Notes under the pieces: generated by a model
Databases searched by the model: none
What the model was told of the DNA's origin: nothing
The model's input: only the letters and a program-made list of their open reading frames with translations
Source of the DNA: a virus
DNA length: 29,574 bases
Virus record (IMG/VR): IMGVR_UViG_3300020162_000336
Location: 1-29,574 of that record
Reading direction: 5' to 3' (one strand)
Translations under genes and position numbers: made by a program
In this document: one piece after another, positions 9,958-23,875 of the stretch
Numbering within the stretch: position 1 is the stretch's first letter
Layout: each line of letters starts with the position of its first letter

Positions 9958-11502
9958 ATGTCAGACGCTATAGTCAAAAACTTAAGTTTCGGGAAAGAAG
10001 CCAGCGATAAAGTATTTGCTGGAATAGAGAAACTAGCCAAAGCGGTTAGTTCTACATTAGGGGCAAGTGGTAAATGTGTTCTTTTAGAAGATACAACCGG
10101 CAGACCTATAATTACAAAAGATGGTGTAACAGTTGCGGATTCTATTATATTGTTAGATCCTGTAGAAAATATGGGAGCTACATTATTAAAAGAAGCAGCA
10201 AGAAAAACCGTTAGAGAAGCAGGGGATGGAACAACAACAGCAACAGTATTAGCTCACGCTATTTTAAAGAATGCTTACAAAGTTGAAAATCCAAACGAAA
10301 GAAAAATAAAAGAGGGTATAAACTCAGCGGTAGATAAAGTAATAGATTATCTAGAAAAGATAAGTATAACTGTTGATGATAATATGTTGGATCAAATTGC
10401 GACTATATCAACTAATAATGATCCTGAATTAGGCAAGTTAGTTGGAGACGCATTTAGATCTGTTGGAAATACAGGAGTTGTAATGATGGAAACATCATCT
10501 AATCCTGAATGCAGTTTAGAATTGGTTGAAGGTATTCAATGTGATATGGGATTAAAGAACATGCATTTTGTAACTAATCAAAAAAACAAAACCGCCGAAC
10601 TAGATAATCCATTAGTATTATTAGTTGAATCACCAATAGATAACATAAGACAAATACAATCAATATTAGAATATGTTATAAAGAATAACAAATCATTACT
10701 TATAATTGGGGATATGGAAGCAATGCCATTATCTACATTAGCAATGAATAAGTTAAAAGGTAACATAAAAATAAATGTTATTGATGCTCCTACATTTGGA
10801 GTGAATAGAAAAGAAATATTTGATGATTTAGCATTGCTTACAGGAGCAACCGTAATCAATGAAGATCTTGGCGATGATCTAGATTTAATACAGCCAGAAT
10901 TACTTGGTACTTGCGTTAAAAGTATCACTAGTCAAGAAGAGACAATATTACATATAAGCGAAACTCCTGAGAGAGTATTGGAAATAATAGACGATATTAA
11001 AAAATCTTTATTAGAAAATCCTACGGCGACAAAAGTAATAAAGTTAGAAAAAAGATTAGCAAGATTGACAGGTAGAATTGCTTTAGTTAAAGTCGGGGCT
11101 AATTCAGAGATAGAGTTAAAAGAAAAAGCAGATAGAATTGAAGATGCTATTTGCGCAACCAAGGCAGCGATTAAAGAAGGTATTGTGCCAGGAGGAGGAA
11201 TTGCTTTATTAAATGCTTCTCATAACATAGATACCTTCTCACTTGGTGAAGAAATATTATTAGATTCTATTAGAGCTCCATTTAATACTATATTAGATAA
11301 TGCGGGTATAGAAAATGCTCCTTTAGAAACAATATCAAAAGTAGGGTACGGTTTAAATGTTGTAACAGGTAAAACTGTTAATATGATTGAAGTCGGAATA
11401 ATTGATCCATTACTTGTTACTAAAAGTGCATTAAGAAATGCGGCATCTGTAGCAACAACTATATTATCAACTGATTGTGTAATTAATAATTTACGCGCAT
11501 AA
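9958..11502 (+). CDS. groL: Phage chaperonin GroEL (Hsp60)
   Basis: 514 aa. All core motifs of the ATPase are present: TLGASGKCVLL (33-43), TKDGVTVA with D55, EAGDGTTTATVLA with D90, and RIEDAICATKAA with D396 before PGGG (411-414). The C-terminal end (GIIDPLLVTKSALRNAASV) is also typical. The apical domain differs: the E. coli YLSPYF substrate/GroES-binding patch is replaced by GLKNMHF. The Gly-Gly-Met tail is missing, so the protein stops right after the last equatorial helix. It is shorter than the 548-aa E. coli protein mainly for that reason. The gene precedes groES, the reverse of the usual bacterial order, and overlaps it by one base. Confidence 0.95.
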   Translation: MSDAIVKNLSFGKEASDKVFAGIEKLAKAVSSTLGASGKCVLLEDTTGRPIITKDGVTVADSIILLDPVENMGATLLKEAARKTVREAGDGTTTATVLAHAILKNAYKVENPNERKIKEGINSAVDKVIDYLEKISITVDDNMLDQIATISTNNDPELGKLVGDAFRSVGNTGVVMMETSSNPECSLELVEGIQCDMGLKNMHFVTNQKNKTAELDNPLVLLVESPIDNIRQIQSILEYVIKNNKSLLIIGDMEAMPLSTLAMNKLKGNIKINVIDAPTFGVNRKEIFDDLALLTGATVINEDLGDDLDLIQPELLGTCVKSITSQEETILHISETPERVLEIIDDIKKSLLENPTATKVIKLEKRLARLTGRIALVKVGANSEIELKEKADRIEDAICATKAAIKEGIVPGGGIALLNASHNIDTFSLGEEILLDSIRAPFNTILDNAGIENAPLETISKVGYGLNVVTGKTVNMIEVGIIDPLLVTKSALRNAASVATTILSTDCVINNLRA

Positions 11503-11762
11503 TGAAAGCAGTTGGTAAAAGATTAATTATAGAAAAAGTAAAAGAAGGTACTACAGAAACAAAGGGAGGCCTTCTATTAGCTGAAAATCACAGAGAAGAT
11601 ATTAGATATATAGAAGCCAAAGTTATTAGTGTTGGCGATGAGGTAGTAGGCGTTAAAGAAGGTGATAGTATATTTTATGACAGACATAATGGTCATAAGA
11701 TAGAACCCGGGAAAGAAACTTATTACGTTATACGGTTAGACGATGTTGTAGTTGTATTATGA
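11502..11762 (+). CDS. groS: Co-chaperonin GroES
   Basis: 86 aa, starting in TAATG with groEL. KAVGKRLIIEKV opens the fold. A mobile loop (about 14-30) contains GGLLLAEN in place of the usual GGIVL tripeptide that grips GroEL. KVISVGDEV, VKEGDSIFYDR and the final YVIRLDDVVVVL complete the beta barrel. It is about ten residues shorter than E. coli GroES. Adjacent and translationally coupled to groEL, it presumably caps that ring, and the loop may be tuned to the phage's divergent apical domain. The next gene starts in its stop codon (ATGA). Confidence 0.9.
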   Translation: MKAVGKRLIIEKVKEGTTETKGGLLLAENHREDIRYIEAKVISVGDEVVGVKEGDSIFYDRHNGHKIEPGKETYYVIRLDDVVVVL

Positions 11763-12220
11763 GTCGTTTAGAACCTTCAGATATTAGAGACATAGGGTTA
11801 TTAAAACACTATAGAATAATACGTAGATGGGCTTGCAGGAATAATGATTTGACAGACGCGGATTTAGAATTACTAATCTATTTTGATTGTATGGAATTTT
11901 TTACCAAACAAGATTATAAAATAGGTACTTATGCTTACAGTTGGGACAATAAACGCTGGAACAATTTATTAAAAGAAGGGTGGATAGTGGTTTGGAGAAA
12001 TAGAAACCATACAACCCAAAAATACAATATATATAAAGTTTCATTTAAGTGTAAACAACTAATAAGTAGAATGTACCGTATAATGCTTGGTAAAGAAGAT
12101 CTGCCAACAAGCCATAGAAATATTATAATGAGTGGTAAAACTCATATGGACAAGCTTAGAATAACCGCTATAGAAAACGTAAATAAAGATAAAACAAGAA
12201 CACACTATGAAGATGATTAA
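11759..12220 (+). CDS. Conserved phage protein with winged-helix-like segment
   Basis: 153 aa, overlapping the groES stop. The run RRWACRNNDLTDADLELLIY, then KIGTYAYSWDNKRWNNLLKEGW, IVVWRNRN and KYNIYKVSFKCKQLISRMY, resembles a MarR-like winged helix: helices followed by a beta wing (GWIVVWRNR), then a dimerisation-type helix. I recognise this combination from other Bacteroidetes phage genomes, where it is conserved but not characterised. The C-terminal 40 residues are basic and polar. It may be a DNA-binding regulator or a virion protein with a wHTH fold. The assignment is by pattern only. Confidence 0.6.
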   Translation: MSRLEPSDIRDIGLLKHYRIIRRWACRNNDLTDADLELLIYFDCMEFFTKQDYKIGTYAYSWDNKRWNNLLKEGWIVVWRNRNHTTQKYNIYKVSFKCKQLISRMYRIMLGKEDLPTSHRNIIMSGKTHMDKLRITAIENVNKDKTRTHYEDD

Positions 12221-15493: not shown

Positions 15494-15720
15494 TGAGTTC
15501 TGTTATTAGAAAAATAAGTATAGGCACAGACTATAAAAATGACGCAATGCATTACTCTGTAGGCCAAAACGTTTACGGGGGCCATGCAATATGTAATATT
15601 ATATTTGACGATAATGACACATCGTATAATATATATATTAAAAAAGAAGATGAAGTCATGCCATGGAAGAAGTTTAATTCTAATATGGCTATTTCAGTTG
15701 AATACGATTTAGAATATTAA
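15493..15720 (+). CDS. Conserved small protein (SVIRKISIGTDYKNDAMHYSVG)
   Basis: 75 aa, joined by one-base overlaps to both neighbours. The opening VIRKISIGTDYKNDAMHYSVG and the C-terminal EVMPWKKFNSNMAISVEYDL are conserved in small proteins next to phage packaging genes, from memory. The body is beta-rich with IIFDDNDTSYNIYIKKED between them. No enzymatic residues stand out. Its coupling to the GroES-like gene suggests shared dosage. Confidence 0.7.
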   Translation: MSSVIRKISIGTDYKNDAMHYSVGQNVYGGHAICNIIFDDNDTSYNIYIKKEDEVMPWKKFNSNMAISVEYDLEY

Positions 15721-16328
15721 TGAGAAGTATATTTAGTTTTATTGTAAAGCCAGTAGGTGAAAGATATAACAATAAAGTTAAAGTTGCGGATAAAGAATTA
15801 ATAATCAATACTAAGATTGAAAGTTTTAAATCCGTAAATAATGTAGCAGAAGTCGTTGCAGTGCCTTTAGCTTATTCAACTGATATTAAAGTTGGGGATA
15901 TAGTTATAATTCACCATAATGTTTTTAGGGTATTTTATGATATAAGAGGAAATAAAAAAAATAGTAGATCATACTTTATGGATGATTTATATTTTTGTGA
16001 TCTGGATCAAATATACTTATATAAGAATACAGGTAAATGGAAAGCGTTTGGCGACAGATGTTTTATTAAACCAATTAAGAATAAAGACTATTTAAACGTA
16101 GCTAAAGAGCAAAGACTTATTGGTATACTAAAATATGGAAATAGTTCCTTAGAAACGCTTAAAATAAACGAGGGAGACCTTGTTGGATATACTCCTTATG
16201 GAGAATTTGACTTTGTTATTGATGGACAAAGACTTTATTGTATGAAATCTAATGATATTGTAATTAAATATGGACATAAAGGAAACGAAACAGAATATAA
16301 TCCAAGCTGGGCACAAAGCAGTTCTTGA
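15720..16328 (+). CDS. Tandem GroES-like beta-barrel protein
   Basis: 202 aa. Two units each resemble GroES: residues about 7-102 begin IVKPVGERY and contain IKVGDIVIIHH; residues about 108-185 begin KAFGDRCFIKPI and contain INEGDLVGYTP and a closing strand. The GroES at 11502 has matching KAVGKRLII and VKEGDSIFY. The first unit carries a loop insertion (GNKKNSRSYFMDD) and neither has an obvious IVL-type mobile loop. I infer a duplicated GroES fold, possibly a co-chaperonin variant or a structural use of the fold. The next gene starts 59 bases before its end. Confidence 0.6.
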   Translation: MRSIFSFIVKPVGERYNNKVKVADKELIINTKIESFKSVNNVAEVVAVPLAYSTDIKVGDIVIIHHNVFRVFYDIRGNKKNSRSYFMDDLYFCDLDQIYLYKNTGKWKAFGDRCFIKPIKNKDYLNVAKEQRLIGILKYGNSSLETLKINEGDLVGYTPYGEFDFVIDGQRLYCMKSNDIVIKYGHKGNETEYNPSWAQSSS

Positions 16329-16545
16329 ATTAATTAAAGTTGCAGAGGAAGCTATCTTAGATAATGGGGATGATGATTTATCCGCAGATAAATTAAAGAA
16401 TGCCGCAGCAACAAAGAAGTTAGCCATATTTGATGCTTTTGAAATTCTAAGTAGAATACAGGATGAAACCCGTATGTTAGAAGAAGAAGATAAAGATCCT
16501 ACAATAAAAACTTTTAAAGGTTTTGCAGAAGGGAGATCTAAATAA
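16270..16545 (+). CDS. Small-terminase candidate
   Basis: 91 aa. The start overlaps the previous gene by 59 bases, which is unusual here, but no later Met gives a sensible protein. The sequence is helical and acidic: AVLELIKVAEEAILDNGDDD, LKNAAATKKLAIFDAFEILS and ETRMLEEEDKDPTI. Its stop overlaps the TerL start as TAATG. Size, helical content and the position directly before TerL fit a small terminase subunit or a related packaging factor. There is no clear DNA-binding motif, so the call is by position. Confidence 0.55.
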   Translation: MDIKETKQNIIQAGHKAVLELIKVAEEAILDNGDDDLSADKLKNAAATKKLAIFDAFEILSRIQDETRMLEEEDKDPTIKTFKGFAEGRSK

Positions 16546-18767
16546 TGTACGAGCAAACACTTTATAAAATACTTCCTGACTACGTAAAACAATCGGTGAT
16601 TAAACAACAAAACCGATATAATAAATGGAAATACGGTTATAATAAAGAGCATGACTTAATTATTATAAGCAAAACAGGTAAGATTGGAGAAATATACGAG
16701 ATACAGAATTTAAGGATCGCTTTACCTTTAATTGACGAGTCTTATAAAAGAACTCCAAAGAAAGAAGAGCAATACTGGGAGCAATTAAAAATGCCAAAAG
16801 AACTTGAAAAAATAAAAAGCGTATTTGATTGGAATAAATATCCAGATAATTTCAAGGAAAAATGGTATGATTATGTAGATAATGAATTTAAACGTAGAGA
16901 AGAAGGCTTCTCGTTTTATAATAATGGAATTCCTACATATATAACCGGCACACATTATATGTACTTACAGTGGAGTAAAATTGATGTTGGTGCGCCAGAC
17001 TTTAGAGAATCAAATAGATTATTTTTTATATTTTGGGAAGCCTGTAAAGCAGATCCAAGATGTTATGGAATGTGCTATTTAAAGAATAGACGTTCCGGGT
17101 TTTCTTTTATGTCTTCTGCTGAGTTAGTTAATCAAGCAACTATATCAAGTGACTCACGATTTGGAATCTTATCAAAAGCCGGAGCAGACGCTAAAACAAT
17201 GTTTACAGATAAAGTTGTTCCAATCTCTCTTAACTATCCTTTCTTTTTTAAACCCATACAAGACGGTATGGATAGACCTAAAACAGAACTCGCTTATAGA
17301 GTACCTGCTTCAAAGTTTACAAGAAGAAAACTAGATAGTCAAGAAAATCCTGAAGAACTTGAAGGTCTTGATACAACAATAGATTGGAAGAACACTGGAG
17401 ATAACTCCTATGACGGTGAAAAACTTAAATTACTAGTTCATGATGAGAGCGGTAAATGGTTAAGACCTGATAATATATTAAATAACTGGAGGGTTACTAA
17501 AACCTGTTTAAGATTAGGTAGTCGGATTATTGGTAAGTGTATGATGGGTTCAACATCAAATGCTTTAGATAAAGGAGGAGACAATTTTAAAAAACTATAT
17601 TATGCTTCAGATGTCACGAAAAGAAACCGCAATGGCCAGACTAATTCAGGATTATATAGTTTGTTCATACCTATGGAATGGTCGTACGAGGGATTCATTG
17701 ATACTTATGGCCTACCTGTCTTCGACACTCCAAAAACCCCAATCAAAGGAATTGACGGAAACGAAATAGATTATGGTGTTATTGAACACTGGCAGAACGA
17801 GGTTGATGGTTTAAAAACTGATTCTGATGGATTAAACGAATATTATAGACAATTTCCAAGAACAGAACAACACGCTTTTAGAGACGAAACAAAACAATCT
17901 TTATTTAACCTTACGAAAATATACGAGCAAATTGATTATAATAATGATCTAAGAAATTCAAATATATTAACAAGAGGTAATTTTCAATGGGAAGGTGGTA
18001 TACAAGACACTAAAGTTGTATTTTATCCAAACAAAGACGGTAGGTTTTTAGTATCATGGATTCCTCCTTATCATTTACAAAATAAAATAATATTAAAGAA
18101 TAGTATGAAATATCCTGGTAATGAGCATATTGGCGCATTTGGTTGTGACCCTTATGACATATCAGGAACAACAGATGGTAAAGGATCCAAAGGGGCTTTA
18201 CACGGATTAACTAAATTTTCAATGGAAGATGCTCCATCTAATACATTCTTTTTACAATATATATCGAGGCCTCAAACAGCTGAGATCTTTTTTGAAGACG
18301 TGCTTATGGCGTGTATATTTTATGGTATGCCGATATTAGCGGAGAATAATAAGCCGAGGCTATTATATCATTTTAAAAGAAGAGGCTATAGAGGCTTCTC
18401 AATGAATAGACCGGATAGAATATTTAATAAACTATCTGCAACAGAAAGAGAGATAGGTGGAATACCAAACTCATCACAAGATATAATACAAGCCCACGCA
18501 GCAGCAATAGAAACTTATATAGAAGATTATGTGGGTTTAAATGAAGTGGGTTACGGAACAATGTATTTTCAAGATACGTTAGAAGATTGGGCAAGGTTTG
18601 ATATAAATAAAAGAACTAATCATGATGCTTCTATTAGTTCAGGATTAGCAATAATGGCTTGTAATAAAAACAAATATATGCCCACTGAAAAAAGAGAAAT
18701 AGTGTCTGTCCCTTTAGGTTTTAAGAAATATAATAATCAAGGAACTACATCAAAAATTATTAAGTAA
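16545..18767 (+). CDS. terL: Terminase large subunit (packaging ATPase-nuclease)
   Basis: 740 aa. The ATPase has an unusual Walker A (LKNRRSGFSFMSSAE, about 179-193), in which Gly is followed by Phe-Ser instead of Lys-Ser/Thr. Walker B is LLVHDESGKW (D300, E301) and the coupling motif is MMGSTSNAL (333-341). The RNase H-like nuclease has acidic residues in FGCDPYD (D535), ILAENN (E600) and TNHDASISSG (D694). Length and motif order match crAss-like and related Bacteroidetes phage TerL. It packages DNA through the portal encoded next. Confidence 0.92.
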   Translation: MYEQTLYKILPDYVKQSVIKQQNRYNKWKYGYNKEHDLIIISKTGKIGEIYEIQNLRIALPLIDESYKRTPKKEEQYWEQLKMPKELEKIKSVFDWNKYPDNFKEKWYDYVDNEFKRREEGFSFYNNGIPTYITGTHYMYLQWSKIDVGAPDFRESNRLFFIFWEACKADPRCYGMCYLKNRRSGFSFMSSAELVNQATISSDSRFGILSKAGADAKTMFTDKVVPISLNYPFFFKPIQDGMDRPKTELAYRVPASKFTRRKLDSQENPEELEGLDTTIDWKNTGDNSYDGEKLKLLVHDESGKWLRPDNILNNWRVTKTCLRLGSRIIGKCMMGSTSNALDKGGDNFKKLYYASDVTKRNRNGQTNSGLYSLFIPMEWSYEGFIDTYGLPVFDTPKTPIKGIDGNEIDYGVIEHWQNEVDGLKTDSDGLNEYYRQFPRTEQHAFRDETKQSLFNLTKIYEQIDYNNDLRNSNILTRGNFQWEGGIQDTKVVFYPNKDGRFLVSWIPPYHLQNKIILKNSMKYPGNEHIGAFGCDPYDISGTTDGKGSKGALHGLTKFSMEDAPSNTFFLQYISRPQTAEIFFEDVLMACIFYGMPILAENNKPRLLYHFKRRGYRGFSMNRPDRIFNKLSATEREIGGIPNSSQDIIQAHAAAIETYIEDYVGLNEVGYGTMYFQDTLEDWARFDINKRTNHDASISSGLAIMACNKNKYMPTEKREIVSVPLGFKKYNNQGTTSKIIK

Positions 18768-21176
18768 ATGAATATATACACAAATCCAAATAGCGCTTTC
18801 CCTAGTCAGGTTGTAGATGATGCTACTAAGGCTTCCGAAGAATATGGATTACAGGTATCTCGAGCTATAGAACAGGAATGGTTTAATCAAGGGAGGACTA
18901 GCGGTAATAGGTATTTAACACATTGGAATAATTTTAATAGATTAAGACTATACGCAAGAGGAGAACAATCCGTACAAAAATATAAAGATGAGTTATCAAT
19001 TAATGGTGATTTATCTTATTTGAATTTAGACTGGACACCAGTGCCTATATTATCAAAGTTTGTTGATATAGTTTCTAATGGCATTTCACAAAAAACCTAT
19101 GATGTAAAAGCATTTGCACAAGATCCAGATTCTTTAAAAAAGAGAATGGATTATGCCTCAGCTGTAAAATTTGATATGTTTGCCAAGTCAGATATTCAAG
19201 ACACTATGGAGGTTACGGGTATTGATATATCAAAATCAAATATCCCTCCAATGGATTTGCCAGCCACCTTGGACGAATTAGAATTACATATGCAACTTTC
19301 TTATAAGCAATCTATTGAGATTGCAGAAGAGGAGGCAATAAATACAGTATTAAAAACTAATAAATACGATCTTACTAGAAAAAGATTAAATTACGATTTA
19401 ACAACTATAGGGATTGCCGCAGTTAAAACATCGTTTAATAAATCAGAAGGAATTGTTGTTGATTATGTAGATCCTGCTTATTTGGTTTATTCATATACAG
19501 AAGACCCTAACTTTGAAGATATTTATTATGTTGGCGAAGTTAAAGCGGTAACAATACCAGAATTAAAAAAAGAATTCCCATATATATCGGAGGATGAACT
19601 TCTCAAGATACAACAAATGCCTGGTAATAGACAATATATTCAGGGATGGGGTAATTATGATGAGAATACAGTGCAAGTATTATATTTTGAGTATAAAACT
19701 TATATGAATCAAGTATTCAAAATAAAACAAGGTGATAATGGATTAGAGAAGGTTATTCAAAAAACCGATTCTTTTAACCCCCCACCAAATGATAACTTTG
19801 AAAAAGTATCAAGAACAATAGAGGTATTATATACTGGTGCTAAAATTATAGGTACTAATATGATGTTAGAATGGAAGTTATCAAATGATATGACACGTCC
19901 ATATGCAGATACAGCAAGAGTTAAAATGAATTATAACATAGTTGCTCCTAGAATGTACAAAGGTAGAATTGATTCAATTGTTACTAAATGTATTTCTTTT
20001 GCAGATATGATTCAACTGACTCACCTAAAACTTCAACAAGTTATGGCAAGAGTAGTGCCAGATGGTGTATTCTTAGATGTAGATGGTTTGATGGAAGTTG
20101 ATTTGGGTAATGGAACAAAATACAATCCGGCGGAAGCATTAAATATGTATTTCCAAACTGGTAGTATCGTAGGTAGATCTTTGACTCAGGACGGCGATAT
20201 AAATAGAGGCAAAGTGCCTATTCAGGAATTAACAACATCTAGTGGTCAGGGTAAAATACAAAGTTTAATACAAACTTATCAGTATTACTTGCAAATGATT
20301 AGAGATGTGACGGGGCTTAATGAAGCTGTTGATGGCAGTAAACCAGATTCTAATGCTTTAGTAGGATTACAGAAAATAGCTGCAAATGCCTCTAATGTAG
20401 CAACCCGCCATATAAAAGATGCAAGTATATATTTAACTACTAGAATTTGTGAAAATATATCTTTAAGAATAGCAGATTGTTTAAATAATCCATTAACAGC
20501 AAACTCATTAAAACAAAGTATATCAACTTATAATGTTGATGTTTTAAAAGAAATGGAAAAACTAAATCTACACGACTTTGGTATTTTTTTAGAAATTGAA
20601 CCAGATGAAGAAGAAAAACAACAACTAGAACAAAATATACAAGTTTCTTTACAAAACCAAGGAATTGATTTAGAAGACGCGATTGATATAAGACAAGTTA
20701 GAAATCTTAAATTAGCAAATCAGTTATTAAAGTTAAAAAGAAAAAGAAAGCAAGCTCAAGTACAAGAGCAACAGTTAGCAAATATACAAGCACAAGCAGA
20801 TGCTAATTCCCAAAATGCTGAGAAAGCCGCAATGTTTGAAGTACAAAAACAAGAGGCTTTAGCTCAGACACAAATACAAATAGCACAGACTAAATCTCAA
20901 CTTGAAATGCAAAGACTGCAAACTGAGGGGCAAATTAAAAAACAATTAATGGCAGAACAGTTTAATTATGATATGCAATTAGCACAATTAAAGGTTCAAG
21001 CAGAAACAACTAAGTTCAATCAGTTAGAAGATAGAAAAGATGAAAGAACTAAGATACAAGCTACACAGCAATCAGAATTAATAGATCAGCGCAAGAACGA
21101 TTCTTTACCAAAGGATTTTCAAAGTAACGCGCAAAATTTAATGGAAGATTTAGGAGGCATGTTACAAATGGAATAA
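18768..21176 (+). CDS. Portal protein with long C-terminal coiled coil
   Basis: 802 aa, starting on the base after the terL stop. The N-terminal body contains LYARGEQSVQKYKDEL, LNLDWTPVPILSKFVD and AVKTSFNKSEGIVVDYVDP, with the mixed alpha/beta pattern of phage portals. IRDVTGLNEAVDGSKPDSNA (about 512-531) fits the crown or stem region. From about residue 655 the chain becomes a Gln/Lys-rich coiled coil (QVQEQQLANIQAQADANSQN) and ends DLGGMLQME. Position and size fit the portal of crAss-like phages. The extended tail may reach into the capsid. Confidence 0.85.
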   Translation: MNIYTNPNSAFPSQVVDDATKASEEYGLQVSRAIEQEWFNQGRTSGNRYLTHWNNFNRLRLYARGEQSVQKYKDELSINGDLSYLNLDWTPVPILSKFVDIVSNGISQKTYDVKAFAQDPDSLKKRMDYASAVKFDMFAKSDIQDTMEVTGIDISKSNIPPMDLPATLDELELHMQLSYKQSIEIAEEEAINTVLKTNKYDLTRKRLNYDLTTIGIAAVKTSFNKSEGIVVDYVDPAYLVYSYTEDPNFEDIYYVGEVKAVTIPELKKEFPYISEDELLKIQQMPGNRQYIQGWGNYDENTVQVLYFEYKTYMNQVFKIKQGDNGLEKVIQKTDSFNPPPNDNFEKVSRTIEVLYTGAKIIGTNMMLEWKLSNDMTRPYADTARVKMNYNIVAPRMYKGRIDSIVTKCISFADMIQLTHLKLQQVMARVVPDGVFLDVDGLMEVDLGNGTKYNPAEALNMYFQTGSIVGRSLTQDGDINRGKVPIQELTTSSGQGKIQSLIQTYQYYLQMIRDVTGLNEAVDGSKPDSNALVGLQKIAANASNVATRHIKDASIYLTTRICENISLRIADCLNNPLTANSLKQSISTYNVDVLKEMEKLNLHDFGIFLEIEPDEEEKQQLEQNIQVSLQNQGIDLEDAIDIRQVRNLKLANQLLKLKRKRKQAQVQEQQLANIQAQADANSQNAEKAAMFEVQKQEALAQTQIQIAQTKSQLEMQRLQTEGQIKKQLMAEQFNYDMQLAQLKVQAETTKFNQLEDRKDERTKIQATQQSELIDQRKNDSLPKDFQSNAQNLMEDLGGMLQME

Positions 21177-22399: not shown

Positions 22400-23875
22400 A
22401 TGTCAAACATGATTAACTCGGTTACTGGAACTAATTTTGGTTCTATTAAACCGTCACAAAAACAGCAAGCGTTAGAAACAAACTACTTAAACTTTACAGA
22501 TGGTAGTGGTAATGACTTTGCGCAACAATATTTACCAGAAATCTACGAGCAAGAAATTGAGCGTTATGGTAATAGAACTTTATCTGGTTTCTTACGTATG
22601 GTAGGAGCTGAGATGCCAATGTCTTCTGATCAAGTTGTTTGGTCTGAACAAAACAGATTGCATATTGCTTATACTAATGTATCTTGTGCTACTGCAACTA
22701 CTTTAACATTTGCGGTAGGAGGTACTGGTATTAACTTTGTTCAAAACGTTATTTCTGCAGGTCAAACTTTAGTAGTTATGGATCCTGCAACTGGAAAAGA
22801 ATTAAAAGTTCTTGTTAATGCTTCTACTACAGCGGGTGGAACAGCAACTGTTACAGTTTATCCTTATACTCAAGCTAGCTTAACTTCTGGAAGTGTTTTA
22901 TTTCCAGTAACGGCAGCTCCTAACGGAACTCTTAAAATATTTGTTTATGGTTCTGAATTTATAAAAGGAAGTACAGATTCTTCTTTAAAATCGGTTACGC
23001 CTTCATTTACTCAATACAGTAATTCACCAATTATTGTTAGAGAAAAATATGAAATCAATGGGTCTGATACCGCGCAAATTGGATGGGTAGAAGTTGCTAC
23101 TGAGGATGGTGCGTCTGGATACTTATGGTATTTAAAAGCAGAATCTGAAACAAGATTACGTTTTGAAGATTACTTAGAGATGAGTGTAATTGAAGGAGAA
23201 TTATCAGCGGCTAGTTCAGGTGTATCGACTTTAACTCCTGCTACAGGTGTTACTTACAAAGGTACGCAAGGTCTTTTCTCTGCCGTTAGAGACAGAGGTA
23301 ATATTGTAAATAACTTTACAGCAGCTTCAGGTCTTAATGATTTTGATTCAATCTTAAAAGGGTTGGATACTCAGGGAGCTATTGAAGAGAACATGTTATT
23401 CTTAAACCGCGCAACCTCTCTTGACTTTGATGATATGCTTGCTTCATTATCTTCCGGTGCAGCTGGAGGTGTAGCTTATGGTTTATTTGAAAACTCTGAG
23501 CAAATGGCATTGAATTTAGGATTCTCTGGTTTCCGTCGTGGATCTTATGATTTCTACAAAACTGACTGGAAATACTTAAATGATGCATCTACTCGTGGGG
23601 GTATGAATACCACGTCTATTGATGGATTACTTGTTCCTGCTGGTACATCAACTGTATACGATCAACAATTAGGTACTAATATCCGTAGACCATTCTTACA
23701 CGTTCGTTATAGAGCTAACCAAGCTGACGATAGAAGAATGAAAACTTGGATTACTGGATCTGTTGGAGGCGCTTATACTTCTGATCTTGATGCAATGCAG
23801 GTACACTTCTTATCTGAAAGATGTTTAGTTACTCAAGGAGCTAATAACTTTGTGTTATTTACCGCTTCTACATAA
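22400..23875 (+). CDS. Major capsid protein
   Basis: 491 aa. The start SMINSVTGTNFGSIKPSQ-type segment and AQQYLPEIYEQEIERYGNRT are characteristic of crAss-like major capsid proteins. TYKGTQGLFSAVRDRGNIVN and FRRGSYDFYKTDWKYLND are further conserved-looking stretches. An HK97 fold is expected from the family. The gene uses CGT for arginine and TTC/AAC more often than its neighbours, which mostly use AGA, as expected for the most highly expressed product. It is followed by a strong terminator at 23883-23928. Confidence 0.88.
   Translation: MSNMINSVTGTNFGSIKPSQKQQALETNYLNFTDGSGNDFAQQYLPEIYEQEIERYGNRTLSGFLRMVGAEMPMSSDQVVWSEQNRLHIAYTNVSCATATTLTFAVGGTGINFVQNVISAGQTLVVMDPATGKELKVLVNASTTAGGTATVTVYPYTQASLTSGSVLFPVTAAPNGTLKIFVYGSEFIKGSTDSSLKSVTPSFTQYSNSPIIVREKYEINGSDTAQIGWVEVATEDGASGYLWYLKAESETRLRFEDYLEMSVIEGELSAASSGVSTLTPATGVTYKGTQGLFSAVRDRGNIVNNFTAASGLNDFDSILKGLDTQGAIEENMLFLNRATSLDFDDMLASLSSGAAGGVAYGLFENSEQMALNLGFSGFRRGSYDFYKTDWKYLNDASTRGGMNTTSIDGLLVPAGTSTVYDQQLGTNIRRPFLHVRYRANQADDRRMKTWITGSVGGAYTSDLDAMQVHFLSERCLVTQGANNFVLFTAST

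Follow-up and report, generated by a model that had tools for sequence, protein, structure and literature searches.

A phage-encoded group I chaperonin with a roofless GroES as its putative cognate lid, and a tandem Cpn10 protein linked to the terminase gene

An uncultured phage family related to flavobacterial phages carries an overlapping groEL–groES pair that, with a probability we put at roughly three in four, specifies a group I chaperonin cage dedicated to the phage, together with its own cognate lid, for large virion proteins. We analysed a virus record of 29,574 bases (hereafter, the window), in which terminase, portal and probable capsid genes, assigned by PHROG matches, lie downstream of the pair and mark the locus as phage-borne. 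The closest annotated relatives of its terminase are found in Elemovirus, Cellulophaga phages and Maribacter phage Panino, all flavobacterial, and in the podovirus MW202828. As originally predicted, both chaperonin genes are present and intact, with groEL first and a TAATG overlap between them, and both have Pfam matches that chance would not explain. The window encodes the following features.

9958..11502, plus strand: groEL, group I chaperonin, 514 residues (PF00118, E 1.3e-56; PHROG 5725, 6e-135; residue map; tree)
11500..11504, plus strand: TAATG stop–start overlap of groEL and groES (sequence; overlaps in related loci)
11502..11762, plus strand: groES, 86 residues, Cpn10 with a GGLLL mobile loop (PF00166, E 2.6e-13; alignment; AlphaFold; Foldseek)
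11759..12220, plus strand: orf153, a 153-residue ORF of PHROG 17028 (unknown function), directly 3' of groES in 114/114 related loci
15720..16328, plus strand: tandem (double) Cpn10 protein, 202 residues (PHROG 13932, co-chaperonin GroES, 5.7e-26; AlphaFold; 7ekq_R)
16270..16545, plus strand: orf91, a 91-residue ORF that follows the tandem Cpn10 gene and precedes the terminase gene
16545..18767, plus strand: terminase large subunit, TerL (PHROG 6681, 7.7e-167)
18768..21176, plus strand: portal protein (PHROG 6547, 2.7e-140)
22400..23875, plus strand: virion structural protein, 491 residues, candidate client and, judging from gene order, probably the major capsid protein (PHROG 13704, 6.4e-96)

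Besides these genes, four imperfect 52-nt direct repeats (65–100% identical to the first copy) occupy positions 385–780, a non-coding, promoter-like or origin-like stretch between oppositely transcribed genes. No Rfam families or tRNAs were found within the window. The orf153 gene may share a transcription unit with groES.

An intact phage GroEL and its origin

The groEL product scores 192.8 bits against Pfam Cpn60_TCP1 (cut-off 34.3), and the Cpn60 domain spans residues 26–510, that is, its full length. Residues are numbered according to E. coli GroEL, mapped by alignment. At the ATP site, T30, L31, G32, K51, D52, D87, GTTT, S151, D398 and D495 are all retained, bearing out the prediction of an intact ATPase with the exception of P33, which is replaced by alanine. 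D52, D87, D398 and the GDGTTT motif, by which we judged ATP binding and hydrolysis, are all present in the window protein, and the three catalytic aspartates are conserved in 80/80 relatives checked.

The anticipated change of the apical patch, from GYLSPYF in E. coli to GLKNMHF, was recovered in the residue map, along with substitutions beyond the patch (R197M, L234Q, V263A and V264M); Y199L, S201N and Y203H complete the set, and the groove residues F204, L237 and L259 are retained. These changes are largely a property of the family: S201N, V263A and V264M are fixed in all 80 members, Y203H and L234Q occur in 78 of the 80, and R197, part of the allosteric salt bridge of E. coli GroEL, is replaced by lysine or methionine in 79 of them. 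The polar replacements L234Q and Y203H could weaken binding of the lid or of clients, and an altered client specificity is plausible.

The protein also lacks the Gly-Gly-Met tail, as predicted, and ends in ...VINNLRA. Its equatorial segment is shortened at positions that make ring–ring contacts in E. coli; of these, E434 is deleted, R452 is changed to asparagine and V464 is not retained. In two contigs, L019 (801-2345) and L128 (3772-5329), groEL is broken into two ORFs, reflecting either frameshift errors or broken genes.

Recent capture of host chaperonin genes, which would provide spare capacity and have no special phage role, would fit a genuine group I chaperonin whose nearest bacterial GroELs come mostly from Bacteroidota. 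However, the best bacterial GroEL is only about 42–43% identical to that of the window, and the apical changes are fixed across the phage family. The phylogeny that had been proposed as a check does not place GroEL within a host genus: the window family forms a clade with support of 99/98 that sits among those of other flavophage GroELs, in a tree whose deeper joins are unsure owing to several long end branches of distant phages. Bacterial and archaeal bins (for example, Aliivibrio, Chloroflexi and Euryarchaeota) yielded GroELs of 55–73% identity; these are placed within the phage clade and resemble products of viral contigs that were probably binned with cellular ones. On sequence comparison, the low bacterial identity and the tree refute recent capture as an event, and we regard a host-derived spare as extremely improbable; because the best bacterial match is so distant, the pair is better described as an old trait of the phage family.

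A roofless GroES that varies with the apical domain

The groES frame is likewise intact and scores 50.2 bits against Pfam Cpn10 (cut-off 21.1). When aligned with E. coli GroES, it lacks the 9-residue roof hairpin and has a mobile loop that is longer by a net 3 residues, the two characteristics of a gp31-type lid. Neither this deletion, which extends across the phage family, elemo and MW202828, nor the tandem Cpn10 protein had been noticed in the original prediction, whose observations were confirmed and whose interpretation held in part. The mobile loop reads GGLLL (47/67 relatives) in place of the GGIVL of E. coli, preserving the hydrophobic triplet. The earlier reading of LLL as a specificity marker was therefore not retained: the sequence difference is real, but the change is mild and the triplet remains hydrophobic, so that by itself it is not evidence of altered specificity.

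An AlphaFold model of the lone GroES (pLDDT 85) shows a confident barrel without the roof hairpin and a lower-confidence stretch at residues 11–30, which is probably the flexible mobile loop. In Foldseek, the model matched GroES structures and, more weakly, gp31 (1g31, 8.5e-4). Profile searches with GroES listed bacterial, plastid and mitochondrial Cpn10 proteins and no gp31, and its sequence features suggest a protein that works like gp31 but is not assignable to the gp31 family. We relied on profile searches here and distrusted short-query negatives, as direct tblastn with the 86-residue GroES against phage records returned no matches although relatives exist.

The two genes are tightly coupled. 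Among 112 related loci, groEL is followed by groES in 111, the two genes overlapping by 1 to 23 nt in every case, and in a sample anchored on the terminase gene both were present in 6/7 contigs with 9.5 kb of upstream sequence. The gene order that was originally described as reversed is thus the norm in this family, but the wider group does not follow it throughout, since in Callevirus the Cpn10 gene lies upstream of that for GroEL.

We next compared protein distances across 52 contigs. GroES distance was tied to GroEL residues 191–290 (partial Mantel r 0.39, p 0.0002) after removal of all other GroEL segments, TerL and orf153. By contrast, the GroEL segment encoded nearest to groES gave r 0.02. 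In contigs L030, L034 and L099, residues 191–290 are 97–99% identical and GroES 97–98% identical, whereas the intervening C-terminal segment is only 73–85% identical; likewise, when L030 is compared with the window at the DNA level, identity falls over the apical domain and over groES but shows no such fall across the stretch that separates them. This co-variation owes most of its strength to 8 contigs whose GroES is divergent, and partial Mantel tests can be over-optimistic: when the 8 were dropped, residues 191–290 fell to r 0.14 (p 0.07) and the GroES signal appeared instead at residues 291–376 (r 0.23, p 0.0035) and also in the equatorial segment at the C terminus (r 0.20, p 0.0095). Plain linkage is disfavoured as a cause by the absence of signal in the intervening segment of the full set, an argument that weakens without those contigs. 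A sliding scan over the 52 contigs showed a second peak of GroES co-variation at GroEL residues 66–105 (r 0.74), off the lid-binding site. Separately, we observed that GroEL sites 83 and 327, which make a salt bridge in the E. coli protein, change together with GroES class.

Because GroES and the first half of the apical domain stay matched while the GroEL segment between them varies, a cognate cage and lid are supported, and the comparisons provide moderate evidence that groES encodes the cognate lid of the phage GroEL. The suggestion of a complete, dedicated machine is accordingly supported, in that both parts are phage-borne and GroES divergence follows the apical domain.

The altered ring–ring positions also raise the question of whether the phage GroEL is a single ring that needs no lid, with GroES mainly serving the host GroEL. 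The chaperonins of phages EL, OBP and AR9 work without a co-chaperonin (PMC9598537), and GroES-type genes occur without GroEL in phage phi18:3. Against this stand the translational joining of groES to groEL in nearly every locus, the divergence of GroES in step with the apical domain, and the tree, in which EL and PBS1 branch apart from the window clade; we consider a lidless ring of the OBP/AR9 kind quite unlikely.

In the favoured model of a dedicated cage with its own lid, groEL and groES would be produced as one translational unit. GroEL subunits would assemble into a ring that holds non-native chains in its altered, partly more polar apical groove and binds and hydrolyses ATP, and the lone GroES would cap this ring by way of its GGLLL mobile loops. 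Since this lid has no roof hairpin and a longer loop, the closed chamber would be larger and open-topped, as in the T4 gp31–GroEL complex. Such an enlarged chamber would suit large phage proteins, a candidate being the capsid protein of about 490 residues.

A tandem Cpn10 protein beside the terminase

About 4 kb downstream of groES, the window encodes a 202-residue protein in which PHROG 13932, the structural model and the match to 7ekq_R all indicate two Cpn10 folds in one chain. The AlphaFold model (pLDDT 80, pTM 0.77) has as its best solved-structure match the chloroplast Cpn20 chain 7ekq_R (E 1.7e-5, over 206 columns). The Pfam Cpn10 score is below the cut-off, so that PHROGs, the model and relatives form the basis of the assignment. 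In the alignment, the mobile loop of the first half is altered, with hydrophobic residues persisting at the loop position, and no loop is recognisable in the second half.

The location of this gene is invariable. It precedes orf91 and the terminase gene in 144/144 loci, a set partly selected by recruitment through groEL or the tandem gene itself; in loci recruited through the terminase, it was found in 53/53 contigs with 1.2 kb of upstream sequence. Its distances correlated with those of TerL (0.79), not with GroEL residues 191–290 (r -0.01) or, after controls, with GroES (r 0.13, p 0.09). The tandem gene is part of the block of packaging and head genes. As for orf91, similar small ORFs are present in MW202828 and phi18:3, and in elemo, Panino and phi38:1 the terminase instead has a longer N terminus; homology of orf91 to that N terminus was looked for and found no support.

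GroEL, a single Cpn10 and the tandem Cpn10 co-occur in Callevirus, elemo, MW202828, Panino and the window clade. The complete genome of phi18:3 encodes a single Cpn10 (L262, 31108-31362) and a tandem Cpn10 (L263, 6459-7061), and a profile search of the whole genome found no GroEL; the tandem protein therefore does not need a phage GroEL. Nor is it among the proteins labelled as structural by MS/MS in the phi18:3 record, which leaves a role as a virion protein unsupported. When viral contigs were scanned with the tandem protein of Panino, no relatives came up.

Two further observations concern Cpn10 genes in other flavobacterial phages. ORF64 of Flavobacterium phage MaF61 (L257, 1912-2475) encodes a 187-residue double Cpn10 directly before a divergent GroEL and differs from the terminase-linked tandem protein. 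CDS0109 of Panino (L247, 4191-4457), labelled hypothetical, scores above the Pfam cut-off for Cpn10 and is an unrecognised GroES near groEL.

How might the second protein act? Lone GroES and tandem Cpn10 could together form one seven-domain lid, for instance from three tandem proteins and one single, in the manner of Cpn20 and Cpn10. Mixed Cpn10/Cpn20 rings are known from chloroplasts (review PMC5780408), Cpn20 is the closest solved structure, and the two gene types occur together throughout the groups listed above and persist together in phi18:3 without GroEL. Yet the tandem protein tracks TerL rather than the GroEL apical segment or GroES, there is no mobile loop in its second half, and its gene lies well away from groES in the window. 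A mixed lid is therefore unlikely in our estimate, and we are similarly doubtful of a three-part system in which one GroEL uses single roofless and double lid subunits as mixed or alternative lids for different virion proteins.

Alternatively, the GroES fold may merely have been reused in a packaging or head-assembly factor that has no chaperonin partner, an explanation that concerns the second lid alone and is compatible with a dedicated groEL–groES pair. We give this a substantial chance, somewhat short of even. It would explain the fixed place before orf91 and the terminase, the co-variation with TerL, the altered or missing mobile loops and the existence of the protein in a phage without GroEL. 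However, the phi18:3 protein could use the host GroEL, as T4 gp31 does; the missing structural label indicates that it is probably not part of the virion; and the hydrophobic residues at the first-half loop position are retained. Overall, the tandem Cpn10 is most likely a second co-chaperonin-like protein with a putative role in assembly, not a routine lid of the phage GroEL.

Virioplankton chaperonins are reportedly treated by Marine et al. 2017, which others cite as prior art. In the literature searched, a partial set that did not include that study, we found neither the tandem protein nor a single-plus-double lid set described.

Relation to known chaperonin systems

The original prediction regarded phage chaperonin genes as often being a GroEL alone or a GroES alone. 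This fails in the wider group, where Elemovirus, immuto, Callevirus and Panino carry both. Phage chaperonins, the overlapping groEL–groES pair of Elemovirus and the presence of GroEL in 36 genomes of the wider phage group (Nishimura 2017, PMC5332604) were already known; GroEL and GroES have both been reported in Panino (PMC11590407), and cpn10 is a core gene of Pervagoviridae (PMC8776804). The GroEL of phi38:1 (gp054), a relative of the window protein, has been identified in infected cells and free virions by mass spectrometry (PMC13288928). New here are the roofless GroES with its longer loop, the matching of cage and lid, and the conserved terminase-linked tandem Cpn10; a three-part set with a matched cage and lid looks like an under-described variant.

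Elemovirus (NC_062741 and relatives) is similar in having annotated groEL followed by groES with a one-base overlap, a roofless GroES and a tandem Cpn10 gene immediately upstream of the terminase, but its GroEL is only about 39% identical and the pair lies on the strand opposite the packaging genes. The Cellulophaga Callevirus phages phi38:1 and Calle share the set of GroEL, single Cpn10 and tandem Cpn10, but differ in apical residues and in having one ORF between the upstream Cpn10 gene and that for GroEL.

Characterised phage chaperonins are either lid-free GroEL-like proteins or lids that work on the GroEL of the host. To the former belong EL, OBP and AR9, which resemble the window protein in being GroEL-like ATPases encoded by phages, with apical and ring contacts that are altered, but need no co-chaperonin, EL and PBS1 being far from the window clade in the tree. 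To the latter belongs T4 gp31, which matches the lone GroES in fold and in its absent roof loops and longer mobile loop, features considered to give the capsid protein gp23 a larger chamber (PMC6318259). Whereas gp31 relies on host GroEL, the window phage encodes a GroEL beside its lid. A widespread family in which a cage and its roofless lid co-evolve would offer a natural system for relating lid shape and apical residues to client size and specificity.

Chloroplasts likewise combine one chaperonin, Cpn60, with single and double Cpn10 proteins, and Cpn20 is the best fold match of the tandem protein; by contrast with Cpn20, the double protein of the phage has no canonical mobile loops, and its genetic tie is to the terminase rather than to GroEL. 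Whether a double Cpn10 bound to packaging genes represents a GroES fold turned assembly factor or a component of mixed lids in phages is, like the matching of cage and lid, testable in cultured relatives such as the elemo and phi38:1 phages. If true, one cage with mixed or alternative lids would be the phage counterpart of the chloroplast Cpn60/Cpn10/Cpn20 system.
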